64,000 bases of DNA from Taibaiella sp. (GCA_016786705.1 JAEUVV010000012.1:1-64000); one strand, 5' to 3'; positions 149 through 24,118 are shown, counted from the stretch's first letter. Translations and numbers: made by a program. Notes: a model not told the origin generated them from the sequence alone.

Positions 149-3082
149 TTATTCGCTCCTGGGGTCGGGCTTTAGCGGCATACGCGCACATTTTTCCACT
201 TCGATGGCCGGGCAGCCAAAATCGCTGACCACCTTTCCCTGTATGAGATAAATACCCTCGCCTTGCAAAGGGTATTCTTTAAGCTGCGGCGGAAAATGTA
301 CCGTATCGATAAATTCCCCGGCTTCATCCTTGAAGGTGCCGAATTTCATCAATTGCCCGTTCCGGGTATGCACTTTTTTATCACAGACAAAATCGGCCAC
401 GACCCGCACGGTTTCGCCTTCCAGGGCCGGCAGGTCCTTAGCCGTGGCAGTACCCCTGTACTCACTTTTAAGTAAGTCAAAAGCTGAAGCCGATACCGGG
501 AAACCCAGCAACTCTATTTCATCGTATATATCTTCCAGCAGGCAGCTGTCCAGGCGCGGCAATACCGGCCGCCTGAAAGGCGCTTCAAAAAGGCTGGCCC
601 TTTCCCCCGCCCGGTGCGCATTACAGAGTAAATGGGCTTCCCATAATAATTCTTTTTTACCTATACCGGTAAACCGAAAAGCGCCGCAACGGATGAGCAG
701 GATCAATTGCTCCAGTCCCGCGCCTGTCCTTAAAAGGAAATTTTCCAGGCTGGTATAGTCCCCGTTCTGCTGTTGTTCTAAAGGAATCAGCTGCGCCAAC
801 TGTTGTTCCAGGTTCAGGATGCCATCATAACCCAGGTAAATATCAATACCCCGGATACTGGTATTGTACCGGCTTTTATTCACACAGGGCAGGCAGATAT
901 TGGCACCTGATTTTTTCGCCTCGCCTACATATACCTTGCGCCGGTAAAAGCCCCCGTAATTGTTCAGCACCGCCACCATAAACTCCAAAGGATAATAGGT
1001 CTTCAGGAAAAGGCTCTGGTAGCTTTCCACCGCGAAGCTGGCGCTGTGGGCTTTATTAAAGCTAAAACCCGCAAAAGATTCCATCTGCCGCCAGATCTCC
1101 CGGGATACCGCTTCGGGGTAGCCGCTGGTCCGGCAATGATCAAAGAAACGTTGCTCAATAAGCCGCATTGCTTTGTCATCACGGGATTTCCCCGACATCA
1201 TACGCCGCAGCACATCCGCATCGGCCAGGTCCAGGCCGCCGTAATAGTGCCCGATCTTCATCACATCTTCCTGGTAAACCATGATCCCATAGGTTTCTTC
1301 CAGTTGCTCTTTAAATACCGGGTGCGGGTAAACGGCCATAGCCGGGTCATGATGCCTTTCAATATACGCTTTCATCATACCCGAAGAAGCTACACCCGGC
1401 CTGATGATGGAAGAGGCGGCTACCAGGGTGGCATAATTATCGCATTGCAGCTTGCCCAGTAATTGCCGCATCGCGGGGCTTTCAATATAAAAGCAACCTA
1501 TAGAATTGGCCGAACGCAGCTGGGCGGCTATGTTTTCGTCCCGGAACAGGCGTTCCGGCTCATCGGTACGCACCATCTCGCCCCTGTTGAGCCGGATGAG
1601 CTCCCGGCAATCCCGGATATGGCCGATGCCCCGCTGGGAAAGGATATCGAACTTCTCAAAACAGATATCTTCTGCCGTATACATATCGAACTGGGTCGTG
1701 GGTAAAGCTTTAGGCGGGTAATCCAGGGCGCAGTAATGCGTCAGCGGCAATTCCGAGATCAACACACCCGAAGCATGTATGCTGCGCTGGTTGGGCAGGT
1801 CTTCCATCTGGTTGTATACCGAGTAGATCAGCTCCGTCACTTCATTTTTATTCAGGGCATGATGCGGGTCATGCACCAGCCGGTCGATATCCGCCTTGGG
1901 CAGGCCGTAGATCTTACCCAACTCGCGGATAATGGAGCGGGAGCGGAAGGTACTCATCGTACCCATTAAAGCGACATTGCCTTTCGGGTATTTATTAAAA
2001 ATATATTCATAGATCGTATCCCTTTCGTTCCAGCTGAAATCTATATCAAAGTCGGGCGGCGTTTTACGTTTGGGATTCAAAAAGCGTTCAAAGTAAAGGC
2101 TCAGTGCTACCGGGTCCACATCGGTAATGCCCAGGCTATAAGCAACTATGGAATTGGCTCCGCTGCCCCGGCCTACATAATGAAACCGGTTAGACCGGGC
2201 AAAGCGGCAGATATCATCTGTGATGAGGAAATAGGCATTAAACTGCAGGTCATTAATGATCTGCAATTCCTTTTGCACTCTTTGCAGGGCTTCTGTATTG
2301 TTGTGCCCATATCTTCTATAAAAACCTTCCATCGTATACTGCAGTAGCAATTCTTTATCGGCATAGCGCTCACCGGTAAAAGTCTGTTTATTTTTAACCG
2401 CTTTAAAATCGAAGTTAAAACTGCATTGGGCGAATAATTGCCGCGTATTACGGATCAGCTCGGGTACCCGCTCATAGCGTTCCAGTAAATCAGGCAGCGG
2501 AACCATGATCTCATCGCCGCCTGCCATCTGCTGTGGCTCCAGCTGGGAGATCAGCAGGTTATGGTCAATAGCCCGGAGCTGTATATGCAGCTTATAGGCA
2601 TCCGGGTGAAAGGTCACCGGGTGCAGGATGACATAGCGCGCTTTAGCCGTCGCCGGGTCAAGCAGGATCTTATTGACCTGGCTGGCCTTAACGCCTATAT
2701 ATTCATTATCCTGTAACTCCCGCACCGCTTTCTTTCCATAAGGATAAACGATCAGCACATCATTCATAGGCGGTGGCGCTACCGGGTAAGGCCGGTTGTC
2801 GCGGTGCGCGGCAGTGAGCAGCTCGTTCAGTTCCCGGAAGCCCGCCGGATTTTTGGCAATACCGATATATAAAAGTTCATCCGCATTACGGAACTCCACA
2901 CCGGCAAGGCCATTCAATCCCCTTGCCTGCGCTTTATGAATAAAGTCCAGCACGGCGCTGCTGTTATTGATATCTGTGAGTACAGCGGATTCATAACCGT
3001 TGGCAATAAGGCTGTCGATCAGCCGTTCGGGGCTCAGCGTGCCGTAGCGCAGGCTGTAGTGACTATGTACATTAAGCAACAT
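149..3082 (-). CDS. dnaE: DNA polymerase III alpha subunit, short DnaE type (mutasome polymerase)
   Basis: This is a C-family DNA polymerase of 977 aa, shorter than replicative DnaE (about 1160 aa or more). It begins with a PHP domain (HSH at residues 6-8). The second PHP motif reads LTDINN where an intact one has LTDHxN, so a metal ligand appears lost. The palm carries GRGSGANS (about 305) and the catalytic aspartates in PDFDIDF (about 341-347), followed by the finger motif around YGIMVYQEDVM and an OB-fold-like C-terminus. The start overlaps the 3' end of the upstream dinB by 11 nt, so the two are translationally coupled. Together with the S24 repressor across the divergent promoter this resembles known lexA/imuB/dnaE2 damage-tolerance cassettes. 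The role as a translesion rather than replicative polymerase is inferred from length and context. Confidence 0.9.
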   Translation of the reverse strand: MLLNVHSHYSLRYGTLSPERLIDSLIANGYESAVLTDINNSSAVLDFIHKAQARGLNGLAGVEFRNADELLYIGIAKNPAGFRELNELLTAAHRDNRPYPVAPPPMNDVLIVYPYGKKAVRELQDNEYIGVKASQVNKILLDPATAKARYVILHPVTFHPDAYKLHIQLRAIDHNLLISQLEPQQMAGGDEIMVPLPDLLERYERVPELIRNTRQLFAQCSFNFDFKAVKNKQTFTGERYADKELLLQYTMEGFYRRYGHNNTEALQRVQKELQIINDLQFNAYFLITDDICRFARSNRFHYVGRGSGANSIVAYSLGITDVDPVALSLYFERFLNPKRKTPPDFDIDFSWNERDTIYEYIFNKYPKGNVALMGTMSTFRSRSIIRELGKIYGLPKADIDRLVHDPHHALNKNEVTELIYSVYNQMEDLPNQRSIHASGVLISELPLTHYCALDYPPKALPTTQFDMYTAEDICFEKFDILSQRGIGHIRDCRELIRLNRGEMVRTDEPERLFRDENIAAQLRSANSIGCFYIESPAMRQLLGKLQCDNYATLVAASSIIRPGVASSGMMKAYIERHHDPAMAVYPHPVFKEQLEETYGIMVYQEDVMKIGHYYGGLDLADADVLRRMMSGKSRDDKAMRLIEQRFFDHCRTSGYPEAVSREIWRQMESFAGFSFNKAHSASFAVESYQSLFLKTYYPLEFMVAVLNNYGGFYRRKVYVGEAKKSGANICLPCVNKSRYNTSIRGIDIYLGYDGILNLEQQLAQLIPLEQQQNGDYTSLENFLLRTGAGLEQLILLIRCGAFRFTGIGKKELLWEAHLLCNAHRAGERASLFEAPFRRPVLPRLDSCLLEDIYDEIELLGFPVSASAFDLLKSEYRGTATAKDLPALEGETVRVVADFVCDKKVHTRNGQLMKFGTFKDEAGEFIDTVHFPPQLKEYPLQGEGIYLIQGKVVSDFGCPAIEVEKCARMPLKPDPRSE

Positions 3083-4238
3083 GATTATCTGTTTTTCCGG
3101 GTAACAAAATGCCTTTTTTGATCATATCTTTTCCGTAGCGCAGGCGGATCTGGTCCATGGCCTGCATCAGGGAAAGGTCCTCGGCCACATCATTGAAGAG
3201 ATCAACCTGGTAAGCTCCGGTAACCAGTTCACTAAACTTGATACCTATGAGCCGGATCAGCATGCGGCGGGAATATAATTTTGTAAATAAACTTTTGGCC
3301 TGCTCCAGCAACACTTTTTCAGAACAGGTAAAACTGATCTTTTGCTGCCGGGTAACGGTTTCAAAATTGGAATAGCGGATCTTCAGGGTGATGCAACCCG
3401 TCAGTTTCCGTTCTTTACGCAGGTCAAAGGCCAGCTCATCGATCATTTGCGCGATAGTCCGGTTCAGGTCTCCCATATCAATCGTATCTTTTTCAAAAGT
3501 ATTTTCCTTACTCATGCTTTTCTGCTCATGAAAAGGAAGAACCGGAGCATTATCGATGCCATTAGCCTTACGCCAGATAGAGACCCCGTTTTCACCCAAT
3601 ACTCTTTGTAAGGTATCCGCTTCCATTTCCTGCAGGGTTTGTATCCGGGAGATGCCCATATTGCGGAGTTTCATATAAGTCTTATCCCCTACCATCGGGA
3701 TTTTACGGATAGACAGGGGCGCCAGGAAATGTTTCTCCGTACCCTGGTCTACCTTTCTTTCATTGCAGGGCTTGGCCTCGCCCGTGGCGATCTTGGACAC
3801 GGTTTTGTTAGCAGAAAGACCAAAAGAGATCGGCAGGTGGGTTTCTTTAATGATGCGCTGCCTTAATTCCCGGGCCCATTTCCAGCAGCCGAAATATTTA
3901 TCCATGCCCGTCAGGTCCAGGTAATGCTCATCAATACTGGCCTTTTCTACCAAAGGGGTATAGGCCTCAATGATCTCGGTCACCATCCGGGAGAACTTAC
4001 TATATTGGTCATGATCGCCCCGCACGACTATGGCCTGCGGGCATAATTGCCGGGCCAGGCGCATGGGCATGGCCGAGTGGACGCCAAACTGCCGGGCTTC
4101 ATAAGAACAGGAGGCCACGACTGCCCGGTCGGAAAACCCGCCTACCAGGATCGGCTTGCCCACCAGCTCATTGTTCAGCAGCCGTTCTACCGAAACAAAA
4201 AAAGTGTCCAGGTCGCAATGTACAATATGTCTTTCCAT
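3072..4238 (-). CDS. dinB: Y-family DNA polymerase (DNA polymerase IV/DinB)
   Basis: This 388-aa Y-family translesion polymerase starts at the internal ATG giving MERHIVHCDLDTFF. An upstream in-frame start would run into the operator region. The catalytic carboxylates are present: DLDTFF near the N-terminus and SIDEHYLD about 100 residues later. It is therefore an active polymerase and not a catalytically dead ImuB. Near the C-terminus QVDLF matches the beta-clamp-binding pentapeptide, suggesting recruitment by the sliding clamp. It is the first gene of a two-gene operon with dnaE. The promoter faces an S24-type repressor, so induction by DNA damage is likely. The pairing with DnaE suggests insertion and extension shared between the two enzymes, which is an inference. 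Confidence 0.92.
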   Translation of the reverse strand: MERHIVHCDLDTFFVSVERLLNNELVGKPILVGGFSDRAVVASCSYEARQFGVHSAMPMRLARQLCPQAIVVRGDHDQYSKFSRMVTEIIEAYTPLVEKASIDEHYLDLTGMDKYFGCWKWARELRQRIIKETHLPISFGLSANKTVSKIATGEAKPCNERKVDQGTEKHFLAPLSIRKIPMVGDKTYMKLRNMGISRIQTLQEMEADTLQRVLGENGVSIWRKANGIDNAPVLPFHEQKSMSKENTFEKDTIDMGDLNRTIAQMIDELAFDLRKERKLTGCITLKIRYSNFETVTRQQKISFTCSEKVLLEQAKSLFTKLYSRRMLIRLIGIKFSELVTGAYQVDLFNDVAEDLSLMQAMDQIRLRYGKDMIKKGILLPGKTDNHVA

Positions 4239-4253
4239 AAAAAATACTACCTT

Positions 4254-4293
4254 TGTTACAAATTGTAACATTATGTTGTTTGTAATGGTAACA
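4254..4293. promoter_or_regulatory. Two 17-bp dyad operators between dinB and the S24 repressor
   Basis: The first dyad, 4254-4270, reads TGTTAC-N5-GTAACA, a near-perfect palindrome. The second, 4277-4293, keeps the outer TGTT and AACA. They lie 23 bp apart, about two helical turns, in the 62-bp gap between the divergent starts. This is where an autoregulating LexA/CI-like repressor would bind to control both directions. The identity of the binding protein is inferred from position. Confidence 0.6.
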
Positions 4294-4300
4294 TATAAAT

Positions 4301-5092
4301 ATGGAACAACAAAAAATATTTTTTAAAGAAAATCTTAAACTGCTCCGCGAAAGGAAGCAATACAGCCAGGAAACACTGGCCGGCAAGCTGGGCTATTCAA
4401 GGGCTAAAATAGCCGCATTGGAAAGCGGGCATACCAAGGCGCCGCAACCCGAGGACTACCTGGCGCTTTCCCAGTTTTTTAAAATAAGCATGGACAGTTT
4501 ATTAAAAATCAACCTCGCCCGGCTGTCGGAATTGCAATTGCGGGAGCTGGAAGCGGGTAATGACGTTTATATGACGGGGAGCAAGGTAAGGGTACTGGCC
4601 ATCAGTGTAGACAAGGACAATAAAGAGAACAGCGAATTTGTACCGGTAAAAGCCAAAGCCGGTTACCGGGACGGCTATGCCAATCCTGAATATATCGCGG
4701 CGCTGCCTAAGTTTAACATACCGGAGCTGCCGGGGCATTTCAGCTATCGTACTTTCCCGATCACGGGAGATTCCATGCTGCCTATTACACCGGGCAGCAT
4801 GGTAACCGGTAAATACGTGGAGAACTGGCAAAACCTGAAGCCGGATACGCCCTGTATCCTGATCCTGAAAGGCGATGCGGATTTCGTGTTTAAGCTGGTG
4901 ACCGTAAATAAGGACGGCACGCTCTTGCTTCGCTCCCTGAATAAGGAATTCGAGCCCTATACTTTAGCGGCTGGCGAGGTGATCGAGATCTGGGCCTTTG
5001 CCATGTATCATTCCAGGGATTTTCCGCAGGCGGCGACGGAACTGGAGGAAATCAAGGCCATGCTCGTCTCAATGAACCAACGGCTGCGGTGA
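4301..5092 (+). CDS. XRE-HTH / peptidase S24 self-cleaving repressor (LexA-like)
   Basis: This 263-aa protein has an N-terminal Cro/CI-type helix-turn-helix (about 9-66) and a C-terminal S24 domain. The autoproteolysis elements can be placed: a scissile Ala120-Gly121, Ser158 in TGDSMLP as nucleophile, and Lys198 in FVFKLV as general base. The spacings (37 and 40 residues) are close to those of E. coli LexA (A84-G85, S119, K156). The fold is CI-like, unlike the winged helix of classical LexA. It is transcribed divergently from dinB-dnaE across two dyads. The likely role is to repress the cassette until RecA filaments trigger self-cleavage. The trigger is inferred from the family. Confidence 0.9.
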   Translation: MEQQKIFFKENLKLLRERKQYSQETLAGKLGYSRAKIAALESGHTKAPQPEDYLALSQFFKISMDSLLKINLARLSELQLRELEAGNDVYMTGSKVRVLAISVDKDNKENSEFVPVKAKAGYRDGYANPEYIAALPKFNIPELPGHFSYRTFPITGDSMLPITPGSMVTGKYVENWQNLKPDTPCILILKGDADFVFKLVTVNKDGTLLLRSLNKEFEPYTLAAGEVIEIWAFAMYHSRDFPQAATELEEIKAMLVSMNQRLR

Positions 5093-12048: not shown

Positions 12049-15000
12049 ATGAAGCTTGCCTTAACGAAATATGTACTATTCCTACACCTGTTTCTTTCGT
12101 TTTTTAATGCCCTGGCACAAAATCCCCCTGCGGGGCGAGCTGAAGCGGACAAACTTAAATTCGGATCAGATTTTGCCTATATCTTTAAAGTCCCAGGTGA
12201 TTCTGTGCTGGATTATTGCTACAAAGGCAAATTACCCCAACCCGGCAGTAACTGGCTGCAAACGCCTGCTCACGTGGTCATCGCCAATAAAACGGACTCC
12301 TTACTTAATAGTCCCGGTACACAGGTAGGGCACTATGTAATAGCGCAGGTAATGGAAGGAAGCCTGACATTTAGAACCGTCAACACATCTCCCCTATCCT
12401 GTAACCTGGTGAATATGGAGCGGGATAAGCTCTTAATCATCAGGGATAAAACGGGTAAACTAATAGAGGACGCTGCTGTTAAGGTAAAAGGCAAAACGAT
12501 ACCCTTCAACCGGCAGCTGATGGCCTTTATTATAGAACCGGGCCAAAATGATACCCTGGAGGTCCGAAGCGGTTCCTCCCTGCACTATTTTATTACCGGC
12601 AATTACAATTATAGCAACAATAGCTATAGGAACAGCTATTATGATAACCAGGTATATTATCAAAGCCCCGGATATAAAGGCTACCTGGTAACCAACCAGC
12701 CCAGTTATAAACCGGGCGATACACTGAAATATAAAGCACACCTGTTAAATCAGGCCGGGAAGCCCGCCACCGACACTTTCGAGCTGCAATTGCAGGATCA
12801 CTCCCGGTACCAAAAAATGCGTTTGCATAAAATCACGCCTCAGGCGCCGGGCGTATACTTCGGTGAATTTGTACTGGGCGATACCGTGCTACCGGACCGT
12901 CAATATGCTCTAGAATTGTTTCATACTAAAAAAGGCACGGCGATCAGCCAGCAGTTTAAAGTAGAAGATTACCTCCCGGACGATACCTACCTGAAAGTGA
13001 AAAGCGAAAACCTGAAACAATACCAGCATGGCGATAGTGTTATCCTCTATGCTTTTGCACACAATGCTAACGGCTTACCCCTGACTGATGGTGAAATTGA
13101 CCTGTGGGTGCTGCGCCAATCATTTAGTGCGAAACCCGGTATACCCCAGGTTTTTGTTCCTGATACCTTGTACCAGGTAAAACTAATGGCTAACCCGGAA
13201 GGAGATACCAGGATCGCGTTCTCTACCGGTATTTTCCCGGAAGTCAGTAACATGAATTTTACTGTAAAACTCCGTTTACGGAATACACAAGGTGAGCAAA
13301 AAGATACGATGTTCACGTTGAATTATGTACCCGAGGTCAATTATTTCAAGATCGAAGAGCGGGAAAATAAGCTGAGCGTGCAATTGATCAAAAACAAGCA
13401 ATCGATCTCCGGGAAAGGCTATTTATACAACCAGAAAGACAGTATTCCGGTCCAATACCCTTTAACCATAAACATCAAACCTAACGATTCTTATTATCAG
13501 TTTACAGAAATTAATAACAGTGGCAAGGTATTAAACCGGGACCAGTTTATACTGAACGCCCGGGAGCCTTTTGTCGAAGAGCAGTATATGGAGGATACCG
13601 CGATATTCCGCCTGGTCAATCCTAAACAGAAATTAATCCGGTATGCGCTTTTTAAAGGCAATGACTTGCTGGCAAAAGGGACTGTGGCACAGGATACCTT
13701 GATAAAGATCCATACTGATCATGATGAAACGGTCACCTTCCAGTATGTTTATGAAAGCAATAATGTCTTTGAAAAAAAGAATAGTATAGCCTTTAAATTA
13801 AAATCGCACATTAATTTTAAATTAAAGAAAAAAGATATTATCTATCCCGGGCAGACGGACACTCTTGAATTATCGGTACAGGATGCGGAAAAGCGGGGAA
13901 TAGCCGGGCTTAATATGACCGTATTGGCATTTAACAGCAATTTCAGGGAAGACTTCGTACCCCGCCTGAGCAGCGCGGGCCTGATCGAACCGGGTCTAAA
14001 AGCGGCAACTACGACCAGTCATTTTACGCCATTACAGCTCAGCTCGCGCACCTTTATTATTAACCAGGCCTGGGCGAAAAACCTTTCCCTGGATACCGCC
14101 TACTTCTACAAAAACATTTTCCTGAATAAGGCTCCTTATACCAGGCATGTTTATCCGACAAAAAGGACTGATATCGCGCAACTGGCTGTATACATCAAAA
14201 CGGGTAATACCTATATACTCCCCGAGTATATCATGAATGAAAACAACACGCCGCTCTATGTAAAAAAAGCGACGATCACCACTAATCCCAACGCGGTACT
14301 TGCCTTTAAAGGCCGGCATAATATCTGGGTACGTAGCGGGCGGCAGTTGTTCCGGCTGTATAATATAGACCTGGAGGAAGGCAAAAAGACCCTGTTGTTT
14401 GTTAACCCCGACACTTTAGCACACCGGGATAAAACAATATCCGCTATAGAGCAAATGCCGGATACCTTACTGCAGTGGGAGAAAGAAGCGATTATAGCCC
14501 GTACTTTACAGATTAATAATGAAAGGGGGACTGATTATACTATCCGGCAATTCGGCTATGACTTCAGGCTGCAGGAATCCCGGAACGGCTCCGGTTATAA
14601 TTATTATGACTACGAGGATGACTATGGATACGGCTACAATGGTTATCATCGTTACAATTACCAAACGATCGCTCCTGTTCTGTTAAACCATGATGTCGAT
14701 TATTTCCAGCAGGGTAACCTTAAGATCACCTTTGCTCCTGAAGCCAATTACCTGTACGCGATCCGGCCTGGCATGTTCCGGCTGGAGAAGATGCGACCGG
14801 ATGCTTATTTGAAAGGCGGCATCAACGATTACGGGGAACGCTATAATTTTACGGAAGAATTAAAACTATTGCAGGATTGGGATTCGTTTATTGTAAATCC
14901 TGTTCCTAAAAAGCCGGAACGTCAAAGGAGCCGCTACGTTACTTTTAAAACCGAAAATTCGGTCCCAAATGCCAGTGTATATGCTACATTGCGGGTTAAC

Positions 15001-17976
15001 GCTTCGCGTCCTGGTATAGGTATGGCCACTATATTTATACCCAAGGACAAAAGCCAGCAACCTATTGTTATCGCTACCAGCTATTCCTCACAGTTAACGG
15101 TTAATCTGCCCGCCGGGACTTATGATATATACCACTATTGGAACGACAGCACCTTTAGCACCAGCAGAGATATCACTTTAAAAACCTACGGTACCCATTC
15201 AATATGGATACCGGAAGCGGCACTTAGCCGGCAGGTCCCCAAAGCCATCATTCCTTATGTTACGATCAATTATTATGTTTCAAAAGGGGTGGCCAGGCAT
15301 CGCCGGCAGGCAGCTGATGCTACAGAAACGTTACAGCTGAATGGCTGGATCACCGATGAGAATGACCGTAAGCTAAAAAAGGTAAAAGTTGAATGGTTAC
15401 AGGGCGCGCAGGTTTTCGCTAAAACAATCAGCGACGGGAAAGGGCGTTTTAGTCTTAAAAATGTGGATGGCCGTGGGGCATTGCTTAAATTCAGCGCTAA
15501 AGGGTTTAAAGGCCAGATAGTAAATATAGAACAAAGAGATCTCGGCGCTTATGGTCTTGATTTCAAGATTGTGATGGAAAAAAGAAGCAGCGTATTCCCG
15601 GAAACCATCCAGGAATACGCGGCGCAGATGCTGGAAACCTTTATAGATAACAATACAGGGCTTGTCCAGAATTATAGTGATATACCTGAAGATAATGAAG
15701 CGGCATTACGGGTAAGTGTTTATGGAAAGAAAATAGACAAAAGGACCTATACAGGTGCTTTAAATAGCGTTTCTGAAAAAGAAATGCACCAGCCTATGCG
15801 TAATTATAGCGTGACCCAAGCCCTGGAAGGCGCTGCTCCCGGGATCAATGCAACTTCCTCAAATGACGCTCCACCTATGGCTATGCCGGGTGTCAGTATC
15901 CGGGGCAATAGCAGTATGGCCGCCGAAACGCAGGTCTTAAAGGATAACGGTTCCGTATTTGGCGCTGAAGCGTTATTAAATACAGAGAAAGCCAATAACT
16001 TTATCGCGGACTTCCTGGGCAATATGCAATCCGCTTCCGGTATGCGGCGCCATTTCAGGGACTGGGCCATCTGGGAACCCAACCTATGGACCGACGCCGA
16101 TGGTAAGACTTCCTTTTCGGTACAATACCCGGATAACAGCACCGCCTGGAAAACCTATGTATTGACCATGGATAAAAAGGGCATCTCGGCCAGCAACTTT
16201 AGCCTGACCAGGGCCTTCAAGCCTTTAAGCGCAAGCCTGAGTATGCCAGCTTTCTTAAGATATGGCGACTCTGTAGAGCTTATCGGCAAAGTGATCAACC
16301 ATACCGGGAAAGCATTTAAACTGGTTACTAATTTCAAAAGCAAGGACCTGGATACCAGTTTTGCTGCTGCTGAAATACAAAATGGAAAGATCGAAAGGCA
16401 GATCATCGCGGCCTCCTTTGCCAATTCAGCTAAGGATACCAGCATTACCGCCAGTTACCAGTTAAACACTGAAGATAAATACGAGGATGGAGAGCAAAAA
16501 ACAATACCGGTTTATCCCGTCGGGCTGGTAGAGCGTAAAGGTTTCTTCACCGCGGTCCTGGGCGACACCACGATACATACTAAAGCCAGCGACCTCGACC
16601 TGCCCTTCACCGGAAATGCTTACCTAAGTATTGAAGGTAACCTGCTGGAAGTAATGCTAAGTGAAATGGAAAATTTAAAAGTCTACCCGCACGGCTGTAC
16701 CGAGCAGCTTACGAGCAAGCTACTTTCAGTGTACTATGAAGAAAAAGTAAAAAGAACAATGGGCAGCAAAGAATTTAATAATACAAAAGAGAAAAAGGAA
16801 ATCCTGGCTAAACTTATAGCAGCGCAAAACCCTGATGGCTCCTTTGGCTGGTTTGGCGGTAACAGTGCGGATTTCCGGGTGACGAATTATGTACTAAGCA
16901 CCTTACAAAAGTTAGCAGACAATAGCCTTAGCCCGATAATAAACAAAGGCTTATCCTTCCTGAATTATAATTTATCCCGGATGAACGCGCAGGACCTGAT
17001 TAGTTCGCTCAGTACCCTTTCTGCAGCGGGATATTCGAGTAATTATGAAAAAGAACTGGAACGGGTAGAAAAGGAAGAGCTAAGTATCTACAACCGGCTT
17101 GCGGTGATTAAGATCAGTAAAGAGCGTAAGCTACCTTATCGTACCGCGCTGGATAGCATTATGCTGGAAGGAGAAATGAGCAGGGCGGGCCTGAAATGGG
17201 GAGAACGAAGCTATGACTGGTACCGGAATGAACTGGCCGCTACCCTGCTCGCTTACGAGATCATTAAAGCGGATAGCATCTATGCTAACAGGAAAAACGA
17301 CATAGTAAAATACCTGCTCTCTAAACGTACCAACGGCTATTATGAGAATACGGCGGAAAGCGGCCTGATCTTAAGTACGCTTTTACCGGATATGATCGTT
17401 GGTGATCCAGAACGGTATGCTAAACGGGAACCGACCATTGTTGTTTTATCCGGCTCTAAAAATGATACCATAAAAAGCTTCCCCGCTTACCTGAAGCTCA
17501 ATGACAAAAACGCGCAGCTGGATATCCGGAAACAAGGTTTGTCCCCGGTTTATATTTCTGTAGCTTATGAATACTTCAACCAGGTTCCTGAAGTCAAAAA
17601 AGGCTCCTTTACGGTCCATACAAGCTTCCTGGACAAAAAAGATCAATCACAGCTAGTGCAAGGCGAGCAGGTCACTCTACGCGTTGCTGTTGAGGTGAAA
17701 GAAGCGTCAGAATATGTAATGATAGAAGCACCATTACCTGCGGGCTGCGTGGTCCTGAATAAGCGTAAAACCAATATTTACGAGTCCGGAAGGGCTAATT
17801 TTAAGGAAAAAACAAGCATCTATTGCGGTCAGTTGCCCAAAGGGACCCACTACTTTGACATTGAGTTACAGGCCAGGTATAAAGGCAGCTTTACCATCAA
17901 CCCGGCATCTGCCTCACTGATGTATTATGCCGATCAGCAGGGTAATAACGAGGTGAAGAAAGTAAGCATTAAGTAA
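12049..17976 (+). CDS. Alpha-2-macroglobulin family protein with eroded TonB-plug insert (A2M-1)
   Basis: The 1975-aa product (start ATG 12049) has a signal peptide ending ALAQ and no lipobox, so it is likely soluble in the periplasm or secreted. The MG2-type segment begins near YKGYLVTNQPSYKPGDTLKY (about 205). Tyr/Asn/Gly-rich low-complexity stretches occur near 185-205 and 846-872. A carboxypeptidase-regulatory-like domain lies at about 1096-1180. It is followed by an incomplete SusC-type plug (about 1220-1310), which keeps a VSVYGKKIDKRTYTG start and GVSIRGNSSM but lacks the VDG and YG-ANGVI blocks. The A2M signature RDWAIWEPNLWTD follows. The thioester motif GCTEQ has Cys at about residue 1550, and alpha-alpha toroid repeats and a receptor-binding-like end complete it. 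Bacterial A2Ms trap proteases through a bait region and thioester. Here the plug sits where bait sequence is expected. The gene is one of a tandem pair. Confidence 0.88.
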   Translation: MKLALTKYVLFLHLFLSFFNALAQNPPAGRAEADKLKFGSDFAYIFKVPGDSVLDYCYKGKLPQPGSNWLQTPAHVVIANKTDSLLNSPGTQVGHYVIAQVMEGSLTFRTVNTSPLSCNLVNMERDKLLIIRDKTGKLIEDAAVKVKGKTIPFNRQLMAFIIEPGQNDTLEVRSGSSLHYFITGNYNYSNNSYRNSYYDNQVYYQSPGYKGYLVTNQPSYKPGDTLKYKAHLLNQAGKPATDTFELQLQDHSRYQKMRLHKITPQAPGVYFGEFVLGDTVLPDRQYALELFHTKKGTAISQQFKVEDYLPDDTYLKVKSENLKQYQHGDSVILYAFAHNANGLPLTDGEIDLWVLRQSFSAKPGIPQVFVPDTLYQVKLMANPEGDTRIAFSTGIFPEVSNMNFTVKLRLRNTQGEQKDTMFTLNYVPEVNYFKIEERENKLSVQLIKNKQSISGKGYLYNQKDSIPVQYPLTINIKPNDSYYQFTEINNSGKVLNRDQFILNAREPFVEEQYMEDTAIFRLVNPKQKLIRYALFKGNDLLAKGTVAQDTLIKIHTDHDETVTFQYVYESNNVFEKKNSIAFKLKSHINFKLKKKDIIYPGQTDTLELSVQDAEKRGIAGLNMTVLAFNSNFREDFVPRLSSAGLIEPGLKAATTTSHFTPLQLSSRTFIINQAWAKNLSLDTAYFYKNIFLNKAPYTRHVYPTKRTDIAQLAVYIKTGNTYILPEYIMNENNTPLYVKKATITTNPNAVLAFKGRHNIWVRSGRQLFRLYNIDLEEGKKTLLFVNPDTLAHRDKTISAIEQMPDTLLQWEKEAIIARTLQINNERGTDYTIRQFGYDFRLQESRNGSGYNYYDYEDDYGYGYNGYHRYNYQTIAPVLLNHDVDYFQQGNLKITFAPEANYLYAIRPGMFRLEKMRPDAYLKGGINDYGERYNFTEELKLLQDWDSFIVNPVPKKPERQRSRYVTFKTENSVPNASVYATLRVNASRPGIGMATIFIPKDKSQQPIVIATSYSSQLTVNLPAGTYDIYHYWNDSTFSTSRDITLKTYGTHSIWIPEAALSRQVPKAIIPYVTINYYVSKGVARHRRQAADATETLQLNGWITDENDRKLKKVKVEWLQGAQVFAKTISDGKGRFSLKNVDGRGALLKFSAKGFKGQIVNIEQRDLGAYGLDFKIVMEKRSSVFPETIQEYAAQMLETFIDNNTGLVQNYSDIPEDNEAALRVSVYGKKIDKRTYTGALNSVSEKEMHQPMRNYSVTQALEGAAPGINATSSNDAPPMAMPGVSIRGNSSMAAETQVLKDNGSVFGAEALLNTEKANNFIADFLGNMQSASGMRRHFRDWAIWEPNLWTDADGKTSFSVQYPDNSTAWKTYVLTMDKKGISASNFSLTRAFKPLSASLSMPAFLRYGDSVELIGKVINHTGKAFKLVTNFKSKDLDTSFAAAEIQNGKIERQIIAASFANSAKDTSITASYQLNTEDKYEDGEQKTIPVYPVGLVERKGFFTAVLGDTTIHTKASDLDLPFTGNAYLSIEGNLLEVMLSEMENLKVYPHGCTEQLTSKLLSVYYEEKVKRTMGSKEFNNTKEKKEILAKLIAAQNPDGSFGWFGGNSADFRVTNYVLSTLQKLADNSLSPIINKGLSFLNYNLSRMNAQDLISSLSTLSAAGYSSNYEKELERVEKEELSIYNRLAVIKISKERKLPYRTALDSIMLEGEMSRAGLKWGERSYDWYRNELAATLLAYEIIKADSIYANRKNDIVKYLLSKRTNGYYENTAESGLILSTLLPDMIVGDPERYAKREPTIVVLSGSKNDTIKSFPAYLKLNDKNAQLDIRKQGLSPVYISVAYEYFNQVPEVKKGSFTVHTSFLDKKDQSQLVQGEQVTLRVAVEVKEASEYVMIEAPLPAGCVVLNKRKTNIYESGRANFKEKTSIYCGQLPKGTHYFDIELQARYKGSFTINPASASLMYYADQQGNNEVKKVSIK

Positions 17977-18053: not shown

Positions 18054-18154
18054 CATGACCTGCATACTAGGCAGTAAATATAGCCATTAATATTATGAGC
18101 CACCCCCAACCTTAAGTATTTCAGTTGCATCTATTAGCTGTTATCCAACAAAAG

Positions 18155-21100
18155 ATGAACATGAAAAATCCTGTTACAGTGCTTACGTTTACGATCTTTT
18201 TATTACTCCTGTTCAATAACCGGGCCATAGCCCAGCCCAGGCATTACCATTTTGAGCAGGCTAAAGATATGGTTTGGGGCAGCCGCCTGGTGCAGGTCTA
18301 TCAGATTCCCTGCGATTCCGTATACCAGCTTGTAATAGGCAATAAACCGCTCTCTCCCGATGCGGATTGGCTGCAACAACCCTTATTCCGGGTTGAGGTC
18401 ACACAATTTGATTCTCTTTTGAATACTTCAATACCAGAACCGGGTTATTATGTAATGGTTACGGCTGTCCAAAACGAGCTCCGCTATCAATTCCGCCGGA
18501 AAGCAGGCTTACAAGCCGAATTGATCCGCTTGCACGATAAAGATTTTATACAGGTTAAAGATGCAACAGGTAAGCTTATCGCGGATGCGACTATAAACAT
18601 TGCAGGTAAGACTGTCGCGTACGATCCAGGCCTTAAGGCATACCCCCTCAGGATGAAAAGAAAAAAACGAATCACTGTACAACGGGGAAACGACATTATG
18701 TTCTTCCACGGCAACGCCGGCAGGATTTATAATGACGCACCTTACCGGGGCTCCGATAATTACGGTAGTTACTACAATGACTATTCCGGTTATCATGCCG
18801 CCACAGTTGCTTATAAAGGTTACCTGGTCACCAATAAACCCAATTATCTCCCCGGGGATACGGTTAAATACAAAGCTTATCTTTTAGATGCCGCTACCAA
18901 TGAACCCATCAAAGAAGCTCTGGATGTTTATGTTGAAGGCGCGCAGAAAACAGCCTACATACATCCTGTGCTCACACAGGGCGATGGGGTCTATTTTAGC
19001 GAATTTGTACTGGGCGACTCCATCCTGCCCGATCAAAAGTATTCCCTGATGGTTAAAGGAAAAGAAAGCCAGGCCGTATTCCGGCAGACCTTCAAAGTAG
19101 AAGATTACCTGCTGGACGACACTTACCTGCGCGTGACTACAGAAAACCGGGACACTTATCAGAAAGGCGACAGCATCCATATGTATGCTTATGCTTATAA
19201 TGCCAATGGCCTGCCCCTAATAGATGCTACCGTGGAGCTTTTCATCAGGTCCGGCCAGGTAAAACTGAAAAAGAACAATGCGAATACCTTCATTCCGGAT
19301 ACACTTTTACACCAACATTTTGATGTGGTGCCGGATGGGGATACCCATATGAGCTTTGCTACAGCCTCGCTACCCGAGCTGGAAGCTATGGAACTGCTCG
19401 CAACCGTAAGATTAAAAAATGCCAATAACGAAATAAGAGATACCACCTTTAGCTTACAATACAGCAGTAACCGTACCTACCTTAAAGTATCGGAGCTCAG
19501 GGACTGCCTAAACGTAAATCTTATCAGTAATAAAAAAGCTATCAGTGGCAAAGGCTTTTATAAACGCAACGGGGCTTTCGCGGATAGCATCAGCTATCCT
19601 TATACCCTGCCGCTTCATTACACCGATATGAATTATACCTTCTTTGAAACAGACGATACCGGCGGCATTCTATCAAATTTCCATTACAATATAGCTAGTG
19701 ACCAGATCCAGATCAGGGAAGATTATTTTAAAGATACCGCCTATTTCCATATCCTTAACCCGCAAAAGATCTGGATGCGCTATGCGGTCTATGAAGGCGA
19801 CAAACTATTGTATTATGGGCATACCGACAAAGATACCAGCATCAGGCAACTGAGTAAGAAGGACCGTACCTTTACGCTGATCGCGGGTTATAACTGGCGC
19901 AACCAGGCGATGAGCAAGCAGGCCACAGCTTATAAGATCAAGTCAAAAATGCTGATAGACCTGCGCAAAAGCGATATCGTTTATCCCGGCCAGAAAGACT
20001 CTGTACACATTTCATTAAAAGACCTGGATGATAAGGGGATTGCTAATACAAATGTTACGGTACTCGCTTTTAATGCAAAATTTAAAGAAGACTTCACAGC
20101 CCGGTTGGAATCATCCGGCTATATACAACCAGGCCTGAACAAGGTAAAACGCTATAGCAGCCTGGATAATGCATCAGGATTTATAAGCTACCATTCTGAA
20201 AAGATCAGTAACAAGTGGTCGGCACTGCTGGGCTTGGATACTAATTTCTTTTATCGCAATATTTACAGAGACACTTCAGATTTCGTGCTGTATTCCTTTA
20301 ATACACAAGATACGGCCCGTGCCCAGGTAGCCATATATGTCAAAGAAGAAGGGCAATATGTGCAGCCGGATCTCGTTTACGCGGACAGCCGGCTTGCCTA
20401 TGCACGTGCGGCTAACCTGGGTACCGATCCTAATGCGCTACGGGTAAAGGGAACAACACAGTCCCTGAGTTTTCGCTCGGCCCGCGCTTTATATCATATC
20501 AGCAAACTGCAGCTCAAAGCAGGTACTAAAACCAATATCTTTATCAACGGAGACAGTATAGGCTACAATACCCCATATGGTAAAGAGATGCAGGTGAGTA
20601 AAAGCAGTAGCCCGGACAGTTTAAACCGATATGAAAGAGAAGCCCTGGCCAATGCTTTGTTTTATTATAAAAGTGAATACAATATTCCCTTTCTGATCCG
20701 GCAAAAAGAACGCCTTTTCCTATCCGCCCCCGGATCTGCTTTTGTCAACTCATTTAACCCCTATGTCTGGCAAAGCAACAACCAGCTCTATGCTATCGGG
20801 CCCATAGATGCCGGGGACTCCCTGCTTTTTTTCCAGCAAGGCAATGTAAAGACCTCCATTATTCATGAGCTTAACTTTACTTACAGCTTAAGACCTGGCA
20901 TGATGCGCATGCTGCAGGATACCCGCAGCCCACATCAGCGCTATAATTATAAAATTCCGCGGAGCAGCATTAGCCCCGGGTTTAACACTGTGTACCAGGC
21001 CGCTGTTGACCCGGACTCCTTGAAGCTGATTACTTATGATAGCCTTTTCCCGCAACCAGATTATACGGTAAGCTATATTCTTAATAAAGATTCAGGGAAA

Positions 21101-24100
21101 GCGCTATTCATTTATCCGGATGGTAACCTTACTTTGTTGGCGCAGGCTGAAAAACCGGTAAAGTCTTTCCTCCTTACTGCTGAGAACAGTAGTAAACCAC
21201 CCCAAATCTTTAATGGACTCTTTAATAGCAATGTCTCTTTTAAAGTAGATACCGGTAAGTATACTTTATGGATCATCTGGGCTGATTCAGGCATATCCCA
21301 ACTCCCTGGACTGGTAATAAAGGCTAAGGGCCGTAATATATATCACCTGGATGTTAAGCGGAAAAAACTTGACCCGCAGTATTTTCCGGAAGAATTAAGC
21401 CCTTTCTATAAGGTCATCAATACAAATGCCAGCCGCGGACATGCTGGTCCACACAGAAGAATTAAGGGAATGGTCATGGATAATCAGGGTGATTTACTTA
21501 TTGGTGCTACCATTACTGTATCGGGTACAGATATAGGGGTGGCCGCAGACGAAAACGGTTTATTTTCACTGGATGTGCCATTGAATAACCAAAGTATAAG
21601 TGTAGAATATTACGGGTGCATCACTCAAAAAATTGAATTGGATAGCCGTTCCGCTTATCATATCGCGTTGCAGGTAGATAACAACCAGGATGCACTGGAA
21701 AGTGTGGCAGTGTATGGTATAAAAATTGATAGACGTACTTATATCGGAAGTCTTATGAGTGTAAATGCAGAAGAGATTGAACGGCGCCCGGTAACCAATG
21801 CCGCTTATGCATTATCAGGCAGTGTACCTGGTGTGACCATAACCACAGGTAGCGGACAACCGGGCAGCACGCCGGATATTATGTTACGCGGTATGGGTAG
21901 TCTAAGCGCGGATGCAAAACCGTTGATCATAGTGGACGGTGCACCCTATTCCGGTGATATAAACAGCATTAATCCCGAAGATATAGCTTCAATGGAATCG
22001 CTGAAAGATGCCACCAGTAAAGCCGTGTACGGTGCCAGAGCTGCTAATGGCGTAATTCTTATTCAAACAAAAACCGGGGAAAAGCAGCCGGGGAAAGGCA
22101 GCTTTTTAAAATCGCAGCAGGCACAAAATTTTATTGCCGGTTTTATGGACGATATGCAGGCCGCATCCGGTATTCGCAGCGACTTCCGTGACTGGGCAAT
22201 CTGGGAGCCCAATCTCTGGACCGATAAAGAAGGTAAAGCGAGCTTTGAAGTGACCTATCCCGGAACGGCTACCGCCTGGAAGACCTATGTACTTGCCATG
22301 AACCCGCAGGGCTTTGCCGCAAGCCAGGTAGCTATGACCAAGTCCTTTAAACCTCTAGGCGCTACCTTGTCCCTACCCCGGTTTTTAAGATATGGTGATA
22401 GTGTGGAAGCAGTGGGCAATGTAGTCAATTATACCGGTACGCCTTTCCAGCTCAAAACAAGATTCAGCAGCCCGGATACATTGTTAACTTCAACACTACA
22501 GGAAGTGAATGCCGGTAAAACAGAAAAATTGCTGCTTGCGGCACCGGCAAACAATAAGATAGATACGGCCTCTTTGACGGCAAGCTTTAGTATGGAAACT
22601 CAAAACGGCTACCAGGATGGGGAAGAAAAAACAATCCCGGTGCTGCCGGTTGGTGTGATCGAGCGGAAAGGGATCTTTACCGCTTTGCCAGGCGATACCA
22701 GCTTCAGTACTATGCCGGACACTTATGGGAAGGCATATTTTACCGGGAAAACGACCATCAGCATTGAAGGTAGCCTGATCGATGTGATGCTGCAGGAAAT
22801 CGAGAGCCTGAAAGAGTATCCACATGGCTGTACCGAACAGATCACCAGCAAATTATTATCTATTCACTACGAAGAAGTGTTGAAACAACTGATGGGCAGG
22901 AAGGATTTTAATAATACCCGTACAAAAAAAATCATCCTCAACAAACTGGCTGCTGCACAAAACCGGGATGGTTCCTTTGGCTGGTTTGCCAACAACAGCG
23001 GCGATATCCGGGTAAGCAATTATGTATTGAACGTGTTAGCTAAAGTCAATACGGATGGTAGCCTCGACCCGCTCATCCGGGAAGGGTATAAATTCCTGCA
23101 AAATCACCTGCCCGATATGGATACCCTTAACCGGATTGCAAGCCTGGTAACCCTTTCTAATGCCGGTCAGAAAGCGGAATATGCCTTTTATATTGATGCC
23201 ATCAAGGCCGATAGCCTCGATTATTACAACCAGTTTGCAATACTTAAAGTTAAAAAAGCGCTGGGCATGGAGTATAAGACGCGACTGGATACTTTACTCA
23301 AAAAAGCAAACGTGGATGAGCAGGGATTAAGCTGGGGTAAAGATTCCTACGACTGGTACCGCAACCAGATGGCCACTACCTTACTGGCTTACCAATTGAT
23401 AGAAAATGATACCGCTTATACAAAGATCAAAACACAGATAGTGGATTATCTTTTGTTCAAAAGAAATAAAGGCTATTACCGGAATACGGCGGAAAGCGGG
23501 CTGGTATTGAGCACACTATTACCTGCATTAATCAAAGAACAAAAACTAAATCCCGGAAAGGGTATTAAAACCAAAGTGAATATCTCCGGCAGCTATACCG
23601 CAATGATCGATAGCTTCCCGAAACGCATTGTACTCAACGACAAAGCCGTCCACCTGGATATTCAAAAAAATGGTATGGCCCCGGCATATATTTTCGTGAA
23701 TTATGAGTTCTTCAATCCCGAAGCGGCCGAAAAAGAAGGCACCTTTATCGTGAGCAGCACTTTTAAAGACAATGGCGGTACCACCCGGGAAGTCTTAAAA
23801 CAAGGCGAATCTTTAAAACTGATCATTAAAGTGGAAGCGACCAAAGACGCGGAATATGTATTGATCGATGTACCGCTACCTGCCGGGTGTATCCCCTTAC
23901 CCAAATCAAAAACGAATCCCTTTGAAGCCAGCAGGGCCAACTTTAAAGACAAAACCAGTATTTACTGTAACACTTTACCTAAAGGCACTCATTATTTTGA
24001 AATTGAGGTACAGGCCCGCTTTAAAGGTACCTTCCAGCTGAGCCCGGCCAGCGCTGCCATGATGTATTTCCCGGATGAGCAAGGAAATACCGCGGTGAAA

Positions 24101-24118
24101 AAAGTGCGGATCCGTTAA
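18155..24118 (+). CDS. Alpha-2-macroglobulin family protein with intact SusC/TonB plug domain (A2M-2)
   Basis: This protein of about 1987 aa is a tandem paralogue of the preceding gene (ATG 18155, or 18161 two codons later). It has a signal peptide ending AIAQ, an MG2-like region beginning YKGYLVTNKPNYLPGDTVKY, and later macroglobulin domains. A carboxypeptidase-regulatory-like domain lies at about 1100-1180 (IKGMVMDNQGDLLIGATI...). A complete SusC-style plug follows at about 1182-1308: AVYGIKIDRRTYIGS, SGSVPGV, IMLRGMGS, PLIIVDGAPYSGDINSINP, and YGARAANGVILIQTKTG. It then continues into RDWAIWEPNLWTD and the thioester GCTEQ (Cys near 1559), ending with complement-like domains. No beta-barrel follows the plug, so this is not a transporter. 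A role in trapping proteases or docking at the outer membrane is inferred. Confidence 0.88.
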   Translation: MNMKNPVTVLTFTIFLLLLFNNRAIAQPRHYHFEQAKDMVWGSRLVQVYQIPCDSVYQLVIGNKPLSPDADWLQQPLFRVEVTQFDSLLNTSIPEPGYYVMVTAVQNELRYQFRRKAGLQAELIRLHDKDFIQVKDATGKLIADATINIAGKTVAYDPGLKAYPLRMKRKKRITVQRGNDIMFFHGNAGRIYNDAPYRGSDNYGSYYNDYSGYHAATVAYKGYLVTNKPNYLPGDTVKYKAYLLDAATNEPIKEALDVYVEGAQKTAYIHPVLTQGDGVYFSEFVLGDSILPDQKYSLMVKGKESQAVFRQTFKVEDYLLDDTYLRVTTENRDTYQKGDSIHMYAYAYNANGLPLIDATVELFIRSGQVKLKKNNANTFIPDTLLHQHFDVVPDGDTHMSFATASLPELEAMELLATVRLKNANNEIRDTTFSLQYSSNRTYLKVSELRDCLNVNLISNKKAISGKGFYKRNGAFADSISYPYTLPLHYTDMNYTFFETDDTGGILSNFHYNIASDQIQIREDYFKDTAYFHILNPQKIWMRYAVYEGDKLLYYGHTDKDTSIRQLSKKDRTFTLIAGYNWRNQAMSKQATAYKIKSKMLIDLRKSDIVYPGQKDSVHISLKDLDDKGIANTNVTVLAFNAKFKEDFTARLESSGYIQPGLNKVKRYSSLDNASGFISYHSEKISNKWSALLGLDTNFFYRNIYRDTSDFVLYSFNTQDTARAQVAIYVKEEGQYVQPDLVYADSRLAYARAANLGTDPNALRVKGTTQSLSFRSARALYHISKLQLKAGTKTNIFINGDSIGYNTPYGKEMQVSKSSSPDSLNRYEREALANALFYYKSEYNIPFLIRQKERLFLSAPGSAFVNSFNPYVWQSNNQLYAIGPIDAGDSLLFFQQGNVKTSIIHELNFTYSLRPGMMRMLQDTRSPHQRYNYKIPRSSISPGFNTVYQAAVDPDSLKLITYDSLFPQPDYTVSYILNKDSGKALFIYPDGNLTLLAQAEKPVKSFLLTAENSSKPPQIFNGLFNSNVSFKVDTGKYTLWIIWADSGISQLPGLVIKAKGRNIYHLDVKRKKLDPQYFPEELSPFYKVINTNASRGHAGPHRRIKGMVMDNQGDLLIGATITVSGTDIGVAADENGLFSLDVPLNNQSISVEYYGCITQKIELDSRSAYHIALQVDNNQDALESVAVYGIKIDRRTYIGSLMSVNAEEIERRPVTNAAYALSGSVPGVTITTGSGQPGSTPDIMLRGMGSLSADAKPLIIVDGAPYSGDINSINPEDIASMESLKDATSKAVYGARAANGVILIQTKTGEKQPGKGSFLKSQQAQNFIAGFMDDMQAASGIRSDFRDWAIWEPNLWTDKEGKASFEVTYPGTATAWKTYVLAMNPQGFAASQVAMTKSFKPLGATLSLPRFLRYGDSVEAVGNVVNYTGTPFQLKTRFSSPDTLLTSTLQEVNAGKTEKLLLAAPANNKIDTASLTASFSMETQNGYQDGEEKTIPVLPVGVIERKGIFTALPGDTSFSTMPDTYGKAYFTGKTTISIEGSLIDVMLQEIESLKEYPHGCTEQITSKLLSIHYEEVLKQLMGRKDFNNTRTKKIILNKLAAAQNRDGSFGWFANNSGDIRVSNYVLNVLAKVNTDGSLDPLIREGYKFLQNHLPDMDTLNRIASLVTLSNAGQKAEYAFYIDAIKADSLDYYNQFAILKVKKALGMEYKTRLDTLLKKANVDEQGLSWGKDSYDWYRNQMATTLLAYQLIENDTAYTKIKTQIVDYLLFKRNKGYYRNTAESGLVLSTLLPALIKEQKLNPGKGIKTKVNISGSYTAMIDSFPKRIVLNDKAVHLDIQKNGMAPAYIFVNYEFFNPEAAEKEGTFIVSSTFKDNGGTTREVLKQGESLKLIIKVEATKDAEYVLIDVPLPAGCIPLPKSKTNPFEASRANFKDKTSIYCNTLPKGTHYFEIEVQARFKGTFQLSPASAAMMYFPDEQGNTAVKKVRIR

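Follow-up and report, generated by a model that had tools for sequence, protein, structure and literature searches.

Bacterial α2-macroglobulins (A2Ms) of type I, such as E. coli YfhM (ECAM) and Salmonella Sa-A2M, combine a CxEQ thioester motif with A2M and bMG10 domains and place their bait ahead of the A2M domain. In the E. coli protein, which is anchored to the inner membrane, a cut in the bait region releases a segment, which then attaches to the C-terminal domain, and the thioester is exposed (PMC4498604). The SusC/RagA transporters (RagA, 6sli; Bt1763) open with about 210 residues that comprise an N-terminal extension (NTE), a Ton-box position and a plug. In Bt1763, the Ton box DEVVVTG is flexible after the NTE in the nuclear magnetic resonance structure of the latter, Ton-box deletion abolished function, and a dominant-negative deletion implicated the NTE in transporter biogenesis (PMC7782687). 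Here, we describe a gene at positions 18155-24118 (plus strand) of a 64,000-nucleotide stretch of DNA from Taibaiella sp. (GCA_016786705.1 JAEUVV010000012.1:1-64000; below, the window) whose product carries such a transporter unit, barrel-less, in the bait slot of a macroglobulin.

A complete SusC N-terminal unit inside a macroglobulin

The open reading frame starts with the ATG at 18155, ends with the stop at 24118 and encodes 1987 amino acids. At residues 1102-1311, the product contains the N-terminal unit of a SusC/RagA transporter in full. This unit consists of an NTE (CarbopepD_reg_2, PF13715, residues 1103-1186, positions 21461-21712, plus strand like all features of this gene; Pfam E-value 1.2e-11), the Ton-box position LESVAVYG (21695-21718), and a TonB-dependent receptor plug (residues 1197-1300, 21743-22054; Pfam Plug 1.3e-19, with NCBIfam and structure matches). 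The NCBIfam SusC/RagA model TIGR04056 matches at 1.4e-65, with query residues 1102-1311 lying on model positions 2-209 of 981, and the SusC signature TIGR04057 also matches (6.2e-14). When solved structures were compared by sequence, the cassette aligned with RagA residues 2-212, the whole N-terminal domain and plug, at 2.7e-36. E-values this low exclude chance matches. No barrel position of TIGR04056 was matched in the window protein, which scores 222 against a cut-off of 368, and the A2M domain comes directly after the cassette. Since the barrel is missing, the protein is not a SusC; it has the N-terminal residues of the transporters on another host scaffold.

An earlier reading, made from the sequence alone (below, the sequence-only reading), had placed a complete SusC/TonB plug and a carboxypeptidase-regulatory-like module inside an A2M protein, ahead of its thioester half and without a barrel. 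The profile matches bear this out. It had also named misassignment of the plug as the way in which it could fail; hidden Markov models, the sequence match to RagA in the PDB and a separate fold model agree on the plug, and misassignment is ruled out.

The fold model of the cassette was built on 89 A2M, SusC and VWA cassettes (pLDDT 80). Its NTE matches the SusC NTE 9hfj (Z 14.2, root-mean-square deviation 1.3 Å over 80 residues), its plug matches that of Bt1763 (Z 12.9, 2.7 Å over 110 residues), and SusC and RagA chains top the Foldseek list. Model residues 93-108, which start at the Ton-box position, are flexible (pLDDT <50) between the two confident domains. Judged against the Bt1763 box, LESVAVYG deviates; 96 of 103 relatives fit a permissive core pattern.

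The macroglobulin scaffold and the bait position

A type I signal peptide without a lipobox, read from the sequence as MNMKNPVTVLTFTIFLLLLFNNRAIA, ending AIA and cleaved before Q, occupies positions 18155-18232. An in-frame TTG at 18125 is probably not the start of the gene because ten extra residues would then precede this clear signal peptide. The A2M domain (PF00207, residues 1348-1434, 22196-22456; Pfam 1.9e-13, 50.5 bits) and the bMG10 domain (residues 1876-1974, 23780-24076; 4.1e-14, 53.3 bits) both score over the cut-off. Between them lies the thioester motif HGCTEQ (residues 1557-1562, Cys1559, 22823-22840), from whose C, E and Q none of the 104 aligned relatives departs. The product is thus predicted to be a secreted thioester macroglobulin. 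In an AlphaFold model of residues 868-1987 (mean pLDDT 81), the scaffold resembles native human A2M (7von, Z 28.1) and C3 (Z ~27), and the Salmonella and E. coli A2Ms at Z ~24 (4u48, Z 24.2; 5a42, Z 23.9). Modelling, which the sequence-only reading had called for, thus returned a SusC-like NTE and plug on a native A2M-like scaffold. In sequence and fold the window protein agrees with type I bacterial A2Ms, with an MG2-like match (18815-19021) that scores 23.7 bits, below the Pfam cut-off of 32.8.

The profile of the part that follows the cassette starts at residue 730 of human A2M and residue 765 of C5. These points adjoin the ends of the human bait region (690-728) and of C5a (678-751). The cassette therefore fills the bait/anaphylatoxin site, after the MG scaffold and ahead of the A2M domain, where the sequence-only reading had placed it. 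In complement C3 and C5, too, a folded domain interrupts the macroglobulin core at the equivalent point; that domain, the anaphylatoxin, is unrelated to the insert of the window protein and is released as a signal.

The window protein differs from the E. coli and Salmonella A2Ms in the content of the slot, and it has no lipobox, whereas ECAM is membrane-anchored. A naive regular-expression scan of cassette-bearing A2Ms revealed no lipoprotein anchor, its four matches falling within ordinary signal peptides. The idea that the cassette replaces a lipid anchor was dropped because type I signals are common in cassette-free Bacteroidota A2Ms as well. Neither a conserved operon partner nor a pbpC neighbour, another difference from the E. 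coli and Salmonella proteins, was seen among 18 loci viewed.

Distribution among Bacteroidota A2Ms

A scan of 197 genomes of the same family produced matches at E <= 1e-60 in 29. SusC plugs alone account for some of them; in the A2Ms that were retrieved, the cassette is intact, shortened or decayed. Named genomes were scanned with the A2M part alone as the query, the cassette being left out. The 79 loci obtained, the best of at least 512 relatives, come from Chitinophaga, Pedobacter, Mucilaginibacter, Hymenobacter, Pontibacter, Saprospiraceae, Bacteroidales and others. Pfam detected CarbopepD_reg_2 (the NTE) in 76 of 78 such loci and Plug in 57, rates that hold for this A2M clade since the loci are the best of that larger set. 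Identical domain order in independent named genomes rules out a one-off fusion or an assembly artefact. The architecture is therefore general, and nearly universal, in this Bacteroidota A2M clade, and the search for A2M-plug fusions proposed by the sequence-only reading was positive. That reading would have yielded to a fusion both universal and already characterised. As to the first, universality is nearly reached within the clade; as to the second, our literature searches found no paper describing an A2M-plug fusion or a wider class of barrel-less SusC cassettes.

Of 20 A2Ms that are more distantly related, three have NTE and plug, three have a clear CPD domain alone (a fourth is weak), and the rest have neither. 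One of the first three (L310, G309:C1:426500-434500) is type II-like and without CxEQ; its slot holds an NTE, the box LEEVVVMGYG and a plug, so the cassette occurs in a second A2M type. In L295-L297 (G369, G491 and G458), A2Ms of ~1,670 amino acids, the slot holds a CPD-like domain and neither box nor plug, possibly an older state. Six loci (L073, L077, L080, L131 and L135, mostly from Saprospiraceae, and L039) have another flavour of plug, RGSR/RGGR...YYIDGVRV; in L073 and L077, the plug-like part precedes the NTE. A single A2M from a Cytophagaceae metagenome-assembled genome (L074:2340-8387) fills the bait slot differently, with a DUF6089/outer-membrane-barrel-like domain and no NTE or plug.

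Conservation of the cassette and the bait question

Column occupancy over 103 A2Ms is 0.98 for the NTE, 0.96 for the Ton-box columns and 0.81 for the plug core. The plug core has been lost in 19 of these proteins, 16 of which still have the box pattern. Compared with 47 SusCs, the A2M cassettes are more conserved in the Ton-box columns (+0.31 bits per column, bootstrap interval 0.12 to 0.71) and less conserved in the plug core (-0.51 bits, -0.51 to -0.29), a comparison that is approximate because the two samples differ in breadth.

Over 136 within-genus pairs, mean identity is 49% in the N-terminal half, 43% in the NTE, 52% in box and plug, 32% in the linker after the plug and 63% in the C-terminal half. 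A bait is expected to be disordered, fast-evolving and sensitive to proteases. The NTE and plug are confidently folded and, at 43 and 52%, do not answer to the first two of these points; the post-plug linker, 6-28 residues long, fits with its 32%. Hypervariability is a property of the short flanking linkers and not of the plug, so that these linkers are likelier bait than the folded cassette. In the window protein, the linker and the helix before SGIRSDFRDW (22076-22183) form the candidate bait segment. The proposal of the sequence-only reading that the plug acts as a folded bait is thus less well supported: the plug changes about as slowly as the N-terminal half, and the variable part lies behind it.

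Origin and renewal of the cassette

A tree of 119 cassettes contains large A2M-only clades (21 rows, support 99; 32 rows, support 93), which indicate that in most clades the cassette has been inherited mostly vertically. Several A2M cassettes are placed among SusCs in the same tree. A second, more careful tree pairs the window cassette with a SusC of its own genome, the one at G000:C10:455818 (support 100/97); in it, an A2M cassette of genome G176 groups with the SusC and the DUF4139 plug of that genome (97/85). Approximately unbiased (AU) tests reject a single A2M cassette clade without later exchange (log-likelihood 130.5 lower, p 6e-5), as well as monophyly of the DUF4139 plugs (p 0.0012) and of the VWA plugs (p 6e-83). 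Because unrelated hosts within single genomes carry similar plugs, cassettes must have been overwritten repeatedly by copying or conversion from resident SusC genes.

Upstream of the gene, at 12049-17976 (plus strand), lies a tandem A2M paralogue (WIN1) whose C-terminal half is 52-53% identical to that of the 18155-24118 product. Pfam and alignment reveal a decayed cassette in it (15313-16032, plus strand), in which VSVYGKKIDKRTYTGAL has been kept and the plug core deleted. In this pair and in another one (L104, 2667-8414 and 8428-14277), the C-terminal halves are 53-67% identical, and the cassettes are far more divergent.

Barrel-less SusC cassettes in other proteins

Pfam also placed barrel-less plugs within DUF4139, ahead of VWA in YfbK-type proteins and in solo secreted proteins. 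These cassettes resemble that of the window protein in having an NTE, to which Ton box and plug may be added, and differ in their hosts. Among the sampled loci, an NTE-type domain was found in 21 of 30 for VWA and in 7 of 30 for DUF4139, a plug match in ~8 and 5, respectively; many of these loci retain NTE and box without the plug. In genomes of genera g1 and g2, the YfbK/VWA and DUF4139 plugs are close to SusC and A2M plugs.

In L190, L191 and L203 (G032, G194 and G176), a SusC plug is inserted inside the DUF4139 of DUF4140/DUF4139 proteins, and in L176, L177, L194 and L196, a CPD domain and a plug stand upstream of vWF_A/VWA/YfbK_C. A solo plug gene, with a product of 189 amino acids, adjoins the VWA plug gene in G032 and G194. 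Elsewhere in the genome of the window (L364, G000:C9:63000-68500, 1646-4393, minus strand), a gene for an extracytoplasmic function (ECF) sigma factor is followed by two barrel-less plug genes. The first encodes a 385-residue anti-sigma-like protein with a predicted hydrophobic segment, a CPD domain and a truncated SusC plug; the second encodes a 270-residue secreted NTE-like plug protein. A search for a wider family of plug-bearing anti-sigma proteins retrieved the query itself as the only near-full-length match. The other matches were mostly SusC plug segments, with one 895-residue VWA protein (G032) matching over query residues 1-139.

Possible function of the cassette

The reading that we favour, tentatively and at a little less than an even chance, is that the NTE, the Ton-box segment and the plug together place the trap at TonB or at the outer membrane, the linkers on either side being the bait. 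We infer a periplasmic location, docking, a linker bait and protease trapping, and one may picture them as follows. Early in this A2M clade, the bait slot of a periplasmic type I macroglobulin would have been filled by the SusC unit, serving as a folded docking unit and not as bait. Through its NTE and exposed Ton-box segment, the trap would be brought to TonB or to the outer membrane on its periplasmic side, with the plug stabilising the docking interface or adding to it. The variable linkers that flank the cassette, chiefly the one between the plug and RxxFRDxAxW, would serve as the actual bait. A protease reaching the periplasm would cut the linker, the freed segment would re-dock as in E. 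coli A2M, and the thioester, once exposed, would capture the protease.

Docking is supported by the order of decay, in which NTE and Ton-box segment outlast the plug, by the stronger conservation of the Ton-box columns than in SusCs, by the flexibility of the segment that starts there, which recalls Bt1763, and by the presence of the NTE-box unit, often without a plug, in YfbK/VWA and DUF4139 proteins, which have no bait. Of the three roles offered by the sequence-only reading, docking to an outer-membrane partner is the best supported, and it would now be narrowed to a TonB- or envelope-docking NTE-Ton-box-plug unit. The third role, a connection between protease trapping and SusC-type transport, may or may not hold. 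Several observations weigh against it. The box of the window protein itself departs from the family consensus LxEVVVVGYG; L064, another A2M of the same genome, is without a cassette; and in the 18 loci viewed, no neighbouring gene links the A2M to TonB or SusCD. The A2M and SusC samples, as noted, are unequal in breadth. Finally, an LxEVxV-like stretch, without GYG, also follows the domain in control DUF5686 and small CPD proteins. We know of no TonB use by these controls, and part of the Ton-box conservation may therefore be structural. It is unlikely that Bacteroidota go further and use the mobile cassette as a general TonB-engaging module of barrel-less envelope proteins, the macroglobulin being actuated by TonB because force drawn from the proton-motive force positions, cocks or releases the trap through the cassette in its bait slot.

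The cassette might instead be a folded decoy that mimics the cell's own SusC and lures a protease or attacker damaging SusC plugs into the trap, renewal from SusC keeping the decoy current. Its place exactly at the bait position, the pairing of the window and G176 cassettes with SusCs of their own genomes and the different cassette states of tandem paralogues would all agree with this. A decoy is nevertheless improbable: the plug does not outpace the scaffold in evolution, its core is gone from 19 of the 103 A2Ms, most clades inherit the cassette without refreshing it, and similar cassettes occur in proteins that have no bait function at all.

It is rather less probable that the slot simply tolerates folded inserts, so that abundant SusC copies keep recombining into it and the cassette fills space but has no selected function. 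Repeated replacement, decay in the tandem paralogue and in other A2Ms, and the DUF6089-like occupant of L074 are what such a passenger would leave behind. A passenger would hardly be retained as the NTE and box are in proteins of 25-30% overall identity, and the conserved plug motifs and the recurrence of the NTE-box-plug unit in unrelated hosts also speak against it. Least probable, and highly doubtful, is a partnership in which the A2M plug interacts with the barrels of SusC or other TonB-dependent receptors, or with their assembly, the macroglobulin guarding or regulating transporters; the intact plug fold, concerted evolution with the resident SusC and the role of the NTE in biogenesis speak for it, but constraint on the plug core is weaker than in SusC, many members do without it, and a tethered plug would probably find little room inside a barrel.

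The N-terminal unit of SusC, whose NTE has no known function, thus persists barrel-free in several unrelated envelope proteins and is time and again rewritten from resident transporters. The cassette proteins offer a natural barrel-free system for learning what the NTE and plug bind, and they suggest that defence against proteases in the periplasm is connected, in a way open to direct test, with the TonB/outer-membrane machinery.
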